A stretch of DNA of 61,355 nucleotides from Burkholderiaceae bacterium. Lineage in GTDB: Bacteria; Pseudomonadota; Gammaproteobacteria; Burkholderiales; Burkholderiaceae_C. The translations under genes and the position numbers were made by a program. The stretch covers positions 1-61,355 of the forward strand of contig JAMLIT010000021.1 of the NCBI GenBank assembly GCA_023954035.1, in the 5' to 3' direction. Shown here piece by piece: positions 4,967 to 12,486 of this stretch (the stretch's first letter is position 1; each line of letters opens with the position of its first letter). The notes beneath the pieces were generated by a model that searched no databases, was not told the DNA's origin, and saw nothing but the letters and a program-made list of their open reading frames with translations.

Positions 4967-6256
4967 ATGATCAAGCTCCTCCACCTGCAAAACCTCAAAG
5001 CCTGGCGCGACAGTGGCCCCGTGCGGCTGGCCCCGGTGACCATGCTGCTGGGCACCAACTCCTCGGGCAAATCGACGCTGCTGCAAAGCCTGTTGCTGCT
5101 CAAGCAAACGGCCGCTGCGCCCGACCGCATGACGCACCTGAACCTGGGGGGCGACGAGGCCAACGATTTTTTCCACTTCGGCGGCTTTAATGCCGTGCTG
5201 TCAAACGGCGTCGCGGCGCCACGCCAGTTCTCGATCGCGCTGGAATTCGAGCGCCCCGAAGGTGAGCGCGTGCGCCATGCGCGCTTTGCCTGCAGCTACG
5301 GGCAGACGGCCAGCGGGGCCGTGGTGGTGCAGGAGCTGAGCCTGTCCACCGTGGCGCGGCGCTTTCGCGTGGTGCGGCGCGAACGCGGCGCGTACTCGGT
5401 GTGGGTGGACGACGAGGCCCAGCCGCGCGGCAAGGGACCGCAGTACGCGCCCGAGCGCTCCATTGCCTTCTCCGCCGAGGCGCTGGCGCTTCTCGGCGCC
5501 GACGGCGCGCATTTGCAAGACCTGAGCCTGGCGCTGCGGCGCGAGCTCGAAGCCATCGTGTACCTCGGCCCGCTGCGCCGCCAACCCGCACGAGACCAGG
5601 TGTGGAGCAAGTCGGCGCCTGGCGAATTGGGGAGCGACGGCAACCAGGTGATGGAGGCGCTGCTGGCCAATGCACTGCTCAGGTCCGACACCCAGGGCGC
5701 GATCCTGGCCAATGTCTCGCAGTGGCTGCAGCGCATGGGCATGGCCGACCAGATAAGCGTGCGCCAGGTGGGGCGCTCCAGCCGCCATGAAGTGGTGGTG
5801 CACAAAGACGGCGTGGTCGCCAACCTGCGCGACGTGGGCGTGGGCGTGGCCCAGGTGCTGCCCGTGCTGGCCATGGCCTTCTGGGCGCCGCCTGGCAGCA
5901 CGGTGCTGGTGGAGGAGCCCGAAATCCACCTCCACCCGCTCGCCCAGGCCGTGCTGGCTGAAATGTTCTCGCAGGTCAGCCAGCAGCGCCAGGTGCAGTT
6001 CATCGTCGAGACGCATTCCGAGCACCTGTTTCGCCGCATGCAGACGCTGATGGCGCAGCGCAAGACCAGCACGCAGCAATGCCAGATGCTGTTTGTCGAG
6101 CGGCACGGCGCCGACGCCGTGCTCGTGCCCCTGGATGTGGACGAGTTTGGCGCCGTGCGCAACTGGCCGCCGCGCTTTTTTGGCGATGCGATGGGCGAGG
6201 CACGCGAACAGGCGCGCGCACGTGCGCAGCGCCTGCGCGAGGCCGCCAGTGGCTGA
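4967..6256 (+). CDS. AAA/ABC-type ATPase, DUF3696-like, of a nuclease-ligase cassette
   Basis: A 429-residue RecF/SMC-like ATPase. Walker A is GTNSSGKST (residues 29-37), an ABC-signature-like segment GVGVAQVLP lies near 290-300, and Walker B with its catalytic glutamate is VLVEEPEIHLHP (about 312-323), followed by a THSEH switch. It resembles single-chain ATPases annotated with DUF3696. There is no TOPRIM domain, so it is not an OLD nuclease and would need a partner for cleavage. The next gene, a PIN nuclease, starts 8 nt before this gene's stop codon and is the obvious partner. Similar ATPase-nuclease pairs occur in defence systems; that role is inference here. A possible -10 lies 9 nt before the ATG. 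Confidence 0.85.
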   Translation: MIKLLHLQNLKAWRDSGPVRLAPVTMLLGTNSSGKSTLLQSLLLLKQTAAAPDRMTHLNLGGDEANDFFHFGGFNAVLSNGVAAPRQFSIALEFERPEGERVRHARFACSYGQTASGAVVVQELSLSTVARRFRVVRRERGAYSVWVDDEAQPRGKGPQYAPERSIAFSAEALALLGADGAHLQDLSLALRRELEAIVYLGPLRRQPARDQVWSKSAPGELGSDGNQVMEALLANALLRSDTQGAILANVSQWLQRMGMADQISVRQVGRSSRHEVVVHKDGVVANLRDVGVGVAQVLPVLAMAFWAPPGSTVLVEEPEIHLHPLAQAVLAEMFSQVSQQRQVQFIVETHSEHLFRRMQTLMAQRKTSTQQCQMLFVERHGADAVLVPLDVDEFGAVRNWPPRFFGDAMGEAREQARARAQRLREAASG

Positions 6257-6812
6257 GGCACGGGCCGTGCAGGCCCGCCTGGTGGACACCAATGTGCTCA
6301 TCGTCGCCAGCGCGGCGGACGACGGTTCGCGCTTTCGCGCCGAGGCGACCCCGGTGGAAGAAGCGGCGCTGCGCCAACAGGTGTTCGACTGGCTCGAAGC
6401 CTTCGAGGCCGACAGCACGCGCCACGCCGTGCTCGACGTGGACTGGCATGTCTGCGGCGAATACCGCCACAAGCTCACCGAGCAGGACTACGGCTGGCTG
6501 GCGATGATGCACAAGATCGACCGCAACGAGGTCGTTTGGGTCGGGGTGGCGCTGGATGCCGACGGCAACGCGGTGCTGGAACCCACACTCGCTGCGGCCA
6601 TCACCGATCTGGCCGACCGCAAGATGGTGGCGGCCGCCCTGGCCGCGCTGGCTGCCGGCCACGCCTGCCTGCTCACCAACGCCAGCGACACCGACTGGAT
6701 CGATTGCGAGCAAGCCTTGCGCACCGCTGGGCTGGAGGTGGAAAACCTGCTCCCCGACTGGCTGCAGGCGCGCTGGCGGCGAAAGCACCCGCGCATCCGG
6801 CGCGCTAAATGA
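6249..6812 (+). CDS. PIN-domain nuclease
   Basis: A 187-residue protein with the acidic residues of a PIN nuclease: D13 in LVDTNVLI, E71 in CGEYRHKL, D123 in LADRKMV and D147/D149 in TNASDTDW. PIN domains are Mg2+/Mn2+-dependent, usually RNA-cutting, nucleases. The GTG at 6249 overlaps the ATPase gene by 8 nt, and GAGG lies about 7 nt upstream. Unlike VapC toxins (about 130 residues, with a small antitoxin gene), it is larger and is coupled to an ATPase and followed by an RNA ligase. The fold is well supported; the target RNA is unknown. Confidence 0.8.
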   Translation: MAEARAVQARLVDTNVLIVASAADDGSRFRAEATPVEEAALRQQVFDWLEAFEADSTRHAVLDVDWHVCGEYRHKLTEQDYGWLAMMHKIDRNEVVWVGVALDADGNAVLEPTLAAAITDLADRKMVAAALAALAAGHACLLTNASDTDWIDCEQALRTAGLEVENLLPDWLQARWRRKHPRIRRAK

Positions 6813-6819
6813 GGCCCCT

Positions 6820-7500
6820 ATGTCAGAAGACTTTTTTCGCTTTCCCCACACCCCCCACATCGCCTGGCTGGCCGCCGGCGAACCACGCGACGACAAGGTG
6901 CTCTCGCGCGCCGAGGCCGAGGAACTGCTCAGCGGCCCCGTGGTGCTGGAGGAAAAGCTCGACGGCGCCAACCTGGGCTTCTCGGTCTCGCCCGACGGCG
7001 TGTTGCGCGCGCAGAACCGTGGCCAGTACCTGCCCCAGCCCTTCCACGGCCAGTTTGCCCGCCTGGGCCCCTGGCTGGCCGCGCACGAGGACAGGCTCTT
7101 CGATGCCTTGGGGCCGCACCTGGTAGTCTTTGGCGAATGGTGCGCCGCGCGCCACTCGCTCGACTACGCCACCCTGCCCGACTGGTGGATGCTGTTCGAC
7201 GTGTACGACCGCCAGGAGCAACGCTTCTGGAGCACCGCGCGCCGCAACGCCTGGGCCGCCGAGATGGGCTTCAATACCGTGCCGCGCCTGTACGCGGGCG
7301 AAGCCACGCTGGACCAGCTGCGCGAGTGGGTGCACGCCCACGACAGCCAATTCCGCCAGGGACATCTGGAGGGCATCGTGGTCCGGCGCGAAAACGCCGA
7401 CTGGCTGGAGAGCCGTGCCAAATTGGTGCGGGCGGACTTCACGCAGACGATTGACGCGCACTGGCGCAGCCGGGCGCTGGAGTGGAACCGGGTGGTGTGA
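6820..7500 (+). CDS. ATP-dependent RNA ligase (Rnl2-like)
   Basis: A 226-residue nucleotidyltransferase with ordered ligase motifs: motif I EEKLDGANLG with nucleophile K46, motif III FGEW (104-107) followed by RHSLDY, motif IIIa FDVYD, motif IV EGIVVRRE (184-191) and a motif V lysine around K201. These fit the RNA_ligase (PF09414) family, which seals nicked or broken RNA using ATP through an enzyme-AMP intermediate. It lacks the large C-terminal extension of T4 Rnl2 and is close to a minimal catalytic core. It lies 7 nt after the PIN gene, so it is co-transcribed; together they suggest RNA cutting and resealing. Confidence 0.85.
   Translation: MSEDFFRFPHTPHIAWLAAGEPRDDKVLSRAEAEELLSGPVVLEEKLDGANLGFSVSPDGVLRAQNRGQYLPQPFHGQFARLGPWLAAHEDRLFDALGPHLVVFGEWCAARHSLDYATLPDWWMLFDVYDRQEQRFWSTARRNAWAAEMGFNTVPRLYAGEATLDQLREWVHAHDSQFRQGHLEGIVVRRENADWLESRAKLVRADFTQTIDAHWRSRALEWNRVV

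Positions 7501-8815: not shown

Positions 8816-12486
<3,671 letters not shown>

Follow-up and report, generated by a model that had tools for sequence, protein, structure and literature searches.

A 61,355-nucleotide stretch of DNA from a Burkholderiaceae bacterium (contig JAMLIT010000021.1), called the window below, carries adjacent genes for an ABC/OLD-like ATPase, a VapC-like PIN nuclease and a single-domain ATP-dependent RNA ligase (Table 1). We propose that this trio is an accessory anti-phage or anti-element cassette in which the ATPase would gate the PIN RNase, as in PARIS or PrrC, and the ligase would reseal the cuts. We assign this reading a probability of about 0.5. An earlier interpretation made from the letters of the DNA (the sequence-only reading) had taken the three genes for one packed unit, and this is well supported. 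The GTG start of the PIN gene overlaps the ATPase stop by 8 nucleotides (nt) (GTGGCTGA), the ligase starts 7 nt past the PIN stop, all three genes lie on the same strand, and their adjacency recurs in other genomes. The 8-nt overlap is plausible because the overlapping GTG (6249) is kept in all five aligned members of the genus. At an alternative PIN start, 6267, which the gene-finding script favoured, the window has GTG, three of the aligned genus members have ATG and one has CTG.

Table 1. Features of the three-gene unit in the window, with conservation among aligned homologues
Feature	Position	Strand	Details
ABC/OLD-like ATPase gene	4967..6256	+	429 amino acids; AAA_15/AAA_21 and C-terminal DUF3696; PADLOC HEC-03B
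Walker A, GTNSSGKST, residues 29-37	5051..5077	+	G29, N31, S32, G34, K35, S36 in 40/40 aligned ATPases
Walker B region, VLVEEPEIHLHP, residues 313-324	5903..5938	+	E316, P318, E319, H321 in 40/40 aligned ATPases
VapC-like PIN nuclease gene	6249..6812	+	187 amino acids from GTG start; PADLOC HEC-03A
PIN D13 codon (DTN motif)	6285..6287	+	D in 51/52 alignment members, G in one
PIN D120 to D123 codons (DxxD)	6606..6617	+	both D in 52/52 alignment members
Single-domain ATP-dependent RNA ligase gene	6820..7500	+	226 amino acids; PF09414
Ligase motif I, EEKLDGAN, nucleophile K46 (6955-6957)	6949..6972	+	E44, E45, K46, D48, G49, N51 in 48/48 aligned ligases

The trio recurs widely. A ligase scan over a collection of 84,980 species returned at least 482 relatives; the best 80 loci (L numbers) were retained, and the locus counts given here refer to these 80. 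Some of them come from the same genomes as those given G numbers, so the two sets overlap. Searches with hidden Markov models placed a PIN gene directly upstream of the ligase in 79/80 loci, at a gap of -8 to 43 nt (median 3), and both PIN and ATPase upstream on one strand in 62/80, a count that includes ATPases cut by a contig end (L053, L056) and one that is fragmented (L115). The sole locus without a PIN gene, L126, also lacks the ATPase. Record titles among the 80 name Beta- and Gammaproteobacteria, Desulfuromonadales, Chlorobiaceae and Verrucomicrobia, with many metagenome bins. The three genes are found together in unrelated bacteria, the first check that the sequence-only reading had proposed. 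The ATPase-less PIN and ligase pairs of L065, L069, L073, L074, L075, L077, L117, L119, L123 and L127 share one chromosomal neighbourhood with ExeA-like and other genes, and those of L081 and L082 share a second.

Closer to the window, 149 relatives of its genome (itself included) contain PIN in 11 cases and ligase in 17. Each of the 12 PIN loci in this set also has the ligase and the ATPase alongside, contig ends truncating some of them. The trio of G021 is 36, 33 and 63% identical to the window ATPase, PIN and ligase, respectively, and G058 holds PIN and ligase, its PIN being found both by reading and by profile. The other ligase genomes have the longer form of the enzyme described below (G003, G040, G043, G121) or a decayed copy (G076); the latter (L033, 7944-8368) has an internal stop and no PIN or ATPase match. 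As a check independent of the ligase scan, even genome samples, both including the window genome, were searched with PIN and ligase profiles. The order sample (300 genomes) has PIN in 11 and ligase in 15. Its nine strong short-form ligases (E 1e-106 or better) all have a PIN beside them, cut by a contig end in G550, and none of the six partial matches (E 1e-31 to 1e-36, frames of 307-347 residues, taken as the longer form) does. The ligase adjoins in nine of the 11 PIN genomes and the ATPase in 10, including G658, where it lies in two frames; the eleventh is G550. PIN occurs six times in the class sample (369 genomes), with the ATPase beside it in 6/6 and the ligase in 4/6. The seven ligases of this sample are those four and three without PIN, namely a fragment by an HNH gene (G155), a long frame (G372) and a weak match (G287, 3.3e-11). 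Because PIN and ligase adjoin in 79 loci and again in independently drawn samples, their adjacency is not due to chance.

The trio is accessory, because it is patchy in the genus and close relatives have the locus without it. In the window genus it occupies one chromosomal region with partly shared flanks and is absent there in G003 and G023. In G012, DNA 99.4% identical to the window starts 75 nt past the ligase stop and the trio is missing; about 14.5 kb of other genes stand in its place (L172, 1-14567), among them two copies of a pair resembling a tricarboxylate receptor and an enoyl-CoA hydratase. Twelve plasmid records have a ligase match at E <= 1e-20. Five of the six that were read carry the trio, four of them confirmed by profile: two conjugative Aeromonas plasmids, a conjugative Rhodococcus plasmid (Actinomycetota; ligase 48% identical), one from Azotobacter and one from Tistrella. 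The sixth has a longer ligase. Elsewhere in the window (8816-11904, minus strand), a thiamine-diphosphate decarboxylase-like gene overlaps a tryptophanase/tyrosine phenol-lyase-like gene by 4 nt; both were named by eye from their translations.

The three proteins retain their active sites. The ATPase matches AAA_15 (2.7e-21), AAA_21 and a C-terminal DUF3696 (4.3e-8) in Pfam, and its list to E = 1 contains no TOPRIM family; no nuclease family was found in it, in agreement with the earlier view of an intact ATPase without a nuclease of its own. In PADLOC it matches HEC-03B over two stretches (7.9e-82), which scores far higher than the AriA profile. The window PIN has no Pfam family above the cut-off, and a weak PIN_3 match (0.0044) was seen in one of the 52 PIN alignment members. 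The fold assignment rests on a predicted structure, which is closest to VapC RNases. The window PIN also matches HEC-03A (7.5e-6, residues 114-170), as do all 52 alignment members. D63 and E71 are likewise invariant in 52/52; the sequence-only reading had already seen the acidic residues of a PIN nuclease. The ligase matches RNA_ligase (PF09414, 2.7e-35) with the KxDG nucleophile and further motifs; the other motif residues checked are kept in 48/48 aligned ligases, except L47 (47/48). Its predicted structure is nearer to RNA ligases than to DNA ligases, and the nucleotidyltransferase fold spans nearly the whole 226-residue model with no second domain. The sequence-only reading had likewise seen a minimal RNA ligase with nucleophile K46. 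In the ATPase-less pairs that were aligned, the catalytic residues of both PIN and ligase are intact.

Identities and trees were compared for the 61 trios that passed length filters. Spearman correlation of pairwise identities, which are not independent, is 0.85 between ATPase and PIN and 0.14 between ATPase and ligase. The ligases are 54-100% identical (median 63%, a conservation partly owed to the choice of loci by ligase similarity), and the medians for ATPase and PIN are 37% and 30%. Two ATPase groups of 29 and 32 members are separated by a single branch on the ATPase tree and again on the PIN tree, each with a Shimodaira-Hasegawa-like approximate likelihood-ratio (SH-aLRT) support of 100, whereas the same split needs 10 changes on the ligase tree, of which well-supported branches force at least four. 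The trees were built by a quick method, and for ATPase and PIN the program issued a warning about long branches that meet. ATPase and PIN thus travel as a matched pair and probably work as one, and the ligase has been exchanged several times while still standing just downstream of PIN in these loci. Such exchange fits a ligase that would recognise a common product rather than one specific partner, and is also compatible with a more general repair role.

The defence setting of the trio is fairly supported. We searched the loci with ten seed proteins from four of them (L067, L084, L085, L086), eight recognised by PADLOC, one SMEK-domain protein by Pfam and one DUF262-like protein by eye; the PADLOC models matched were type I restriction-modification (R-M), methylase, helicase, HNH and pAgo. 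PADLOC scoring itself covered one locus per arrangement type. A relative of a seed occurs somewhere in the stretch in 30/80 loci by BLAST, and a seed-family gene is the direct same-strand neighbour in 24/80, on both sides in 13; these are raw counts without a random-locus background. The argument rests on loci in which the trio is embedded on both sides, overlapping its neighbours or separated from them by only a few bases. The trio stands between hsdM-hsdS and hsdR in L085, L090 and L108, between a methylase and an HNH gene in L086, L088, L112, L121 and L122 (with a helicase gene ahead of the methylase in L086, L088 and L112), and between an Argonaute and an HNH gene in L084, L097, L109 and L120. 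In these last four loci, the 473-residue Argonaute lies 15 nt ahead of the ATPase in a same-strand run (pAgo 2.6e-178 in L084), and a relative of the SMEK-domain protein of L084 comes before it. Of the 24 defence-flanked loci, 22 are in the tree set, 10 in clade I and 12 in clade II, so that each of the two ATPase-PIN clades has members among them. Recurrence inside defence operons, which the sequence-only reading had proposed as a check, was thus seen for part of the loci.

We infer the following chain of events. The ATPase would be both sensor and gate and would hold the PIN protein inactive until a trigger arrives. The freed PIN would cut an essential structured RNA at a specific site, with tRNA anticodon loops and rRNA as the likeliest targets, and would thereby halt translation. 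According to the available part of PMC7180214, the targets of VapC toxins are tRNA anticodon loops or the sarcin-ricin loop, and the cut ends carry 3'-OH and 5'-phosphate. A metal-dependent PIN cut is expected to yield these ends too, and an Rnl2/Rnl5-type ATP-dependent ligase joins them without a kinase or phosphatase. Since the expected PIN ends are those that such a ligase joins unaided, the ligase could reseal the PIN cut, so that leaky cleavage would be mopped up and the cell could recover.

The main sequence-based hint that the trio ligase works on ends needing no healing comes from its longer relatives. These enzymes, 36-40% identical, directly precede an AAA_33-domain gene in four of four loci (L034 7378-9465, L035 7633-9806, L036 7716-9820, L037 6203-8341), in which a profile search gave no PIN match. 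We read the AAA_33 P-loop protein as a polynucleotide kinase, as would be expected if the substrates of the longer ligases need end-healing, and this pair is probably a separate RNA-repair cassette. With 949 genes called between them, the 80 loci and L129 yielded no relative of the four AAA_33 proteins. L129 itself is an IMG/VR contig of 4029 bases with a 67% identical ligase at its edge, and it may represent an island instead of a phage. On plasmid NZ_OX638702.1 (L155), a longer ligase precedes an AAA ATPase gene.

We also consider, tentatively and with somewhat less confidence than the cassette as a whole, that the trio is a defence or toxin module whose antidote undoes the work of the toxin: the PIN would cut, the ligase would reseal the same bond, and the ATPase would tip the balance on infection. 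If so, the ATPase-less PIN and ligase pairs would be a type of toxin-antitoxin system in which the antitoxin repairs damage instead of blocking the toxin, and the defence would be reversible, not suicidal. Systems that pair an ATPase with a nuclease are usually taken to shut down the cell permanently, and RNA repair is known in this conflict mainly as a phage counter-weapon; the trio would put it on the side of the host. A cutter and a matching joiner in one cassette would amount to a built-in reset, a reversible abortive infection testable by point mutants of K46 and D13.

Several observations weigh against the proposed ATPase-gated, resealing defence cassette. No seed-family defence gene is a direct neighbour in 56/80 loci. 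In the window genus the trio lies amid metabolic genes and not in a defence island, and no defence genes were recognised near the window copy, whose neighbours were judged by eye from translations and not scanned against PADLOC. Nor is the trio obligatory, since both PIN-ligase and ATPase-PIN pairs exist. Seventeen loci have PIN and ligase without the ATPase; four are cut by a contig end (L054, L080, L098, L110) and 13 have room upstream. Together with G058, listed as 100% complete, in which the ATPase profile found nothing (no positive control was run in that genome), these 13 loci mean that gating of PIN by the ATPase is not universal. The ligase is missing beside ATPase and PIN in G218, G388, G102 and G587. 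Turnover of ATP may be weak in many relatives, because residue 317 (window 5915-5917), where a catalytic acid usually follows Walker B, is E in 16/40 aligned ATPases, including that of the window, and Q in 24/40. Changes from E to Q at this place are used to lock ABC ATPases, and whole groups of Q317 enzymes may be slow to turn over the ATP that they bind. Truncated T4 Rnl2, a nucleotidyltransferase domain alone like this ligase, is poor at the AMP-transfer step. Finally, the available part of a VapC-mt11 study (PMC6459853) gives 5'-OH ends, which would defeat direct resealing. As a separate observation, the ligase-less ATPase-PIN pair of G102 (L156, 4836-7546) lies just past a phage-type repressor gene, named by eye, like a prophage accessory site.

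Other explanations give the ligase a different task. It could be a general RNA-repair add-on that mends host RNA broken by other nucleases (those of phages, other toxins or R-M guardians) and not the cut of its PIN neighbour. The ligase does not track its PIN partner, since it is more conserved than ATPase and PIN and reassorts, and ATPase-PIN pairs exist without it. Against it, PIN stands at the side of the ligase in all loci except L126, and short-type ligases without PIN occurred in the samples only as a fragment (G155), a decayed copy (G076) and a weak match (G287); the trio also lacks the end-healing kinase that 5'-OH and cyclic-phosphate breaks need. We regard this explanation as unlikely. 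It is more doubtful still that the ligase belongs to the attack itself, acting with PIN to rearrange RNA through wrong-end joins, circles or adenylated 5' ends that phage enzymes could not undo. The intact catalytic residues in the aligned ATPase-less pairs and the modelled lack of a second ligase domain would suit such a role, but ligase-less ATPase-PIN pairs persist, and the conservation and exchange of the ligase suit repair at least equally.

The trio might instead serve RNA processing outside defence, in the manner of the HARP RNase P, whose gene often has an Rnl3 ligase gene as its neighbour. This seems improbable for genes that are patchy in the genus, absent in close relatives, carried on conjugative plasmids and placed inside R-M operons; HARP is moreover rare and mostly from extreme environments (PMC12153264), and no HARP family appeared in the Pfam and NCBIfam output for the trio proteins. 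An ATPase-controlled nicking and sealing of DNA by the nuclease-ligase pair is the least probable of the explanations considered.

The PIN protein shares with VapBC the VapC-like fold, as modelled, with its acidic site. Membership in VapBC was rejected, because the gene directly upstream is the overlapping ATPase and not a VapB antitoxin, and the ligase follows downstream. The nearest published pairing of PIN and ligase that we found is HARP with Rnl3, in which the genes for a PIN-fold RNase and an ATP-dependent RNA ligase are linked (PMC12153264). That pairing has no ATPase, its PIN and ligase appear to belong to other families than those of the trio, and HARP-ligase pairs are mostly not co-linear (PMC12153264), whereas PIN and ligase of the trio are co-linear in 79/79 loci.

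An ATPase-controlled RNase within a type I R-M operon recalls PrrC and RloC. PrrC is one protein, and the ligase that undoes its damage belongs to phage T4; the candidate resealing ligase of the trio is in the host cassette. PrrC lies inside a type Ic R-M locus (EcoprrI) and is activated upon inhibition of that R-M system, as stated in the available part of PMC12707154, and its RNase is of the HEPN type (PMC12409363). The trio can be found in a comparable position, namely in the three hsdS-hsdR loci. Membership in PrrC/RloC was rejected on the separate genes, the modelled PIN fold and the absence of HEPN from the Pfam lists.

PARIS also sets an ABC-type ATPase beside a separate RNase, and the trio ATPase matches the AriA profile (1.5e-22), though HEC-03B scores far higher. 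In the part of PMC12409363 available, an AriA hexamer sequesters the AriB tRNase; a phage protein sets AriB free, which then cuts tRNA-Lys and leaves 3'-OH ends. PARIS is the nearest worked example of the mechanism proposed for the trio. AriB is a Toprim protein, whereas the trio effector has a predicted PIN fold and a ligase is added; an AriB-type effector was rejected on that model and on the absence of Toprim from the Pfam lists of the three proteins.

The closest likeness is to HEC-03, a candidate of PADLOC-DB v2 (HEC, Hma-embedded candidate; defined in the available parts of PMC12988326 and PMC10855318), whose components HEC-03B and HEC-03A are matched by the window ATPase and PIN. In L079, genes for an m5C methylase and a helicase lie downstream of the trio, starting 1.5 kb past it, an arrangement like that of Hma; the window copy is not so embedded. 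In the literature searched, HEC-03 is named in one paper, without a mechanism in the part available (PMC13356809), and no paper mentions both DUF3696 and RNA ligase. The sequence-only reading knew of no described system with exactly this trio, which stands for the ligase, without a match to any PADLOC model, and not for the ATPase and PIN, already known as HEC-03. The ligase-bearing trio extends this catalogued candidate and provides a concrete hypothesis for its function.

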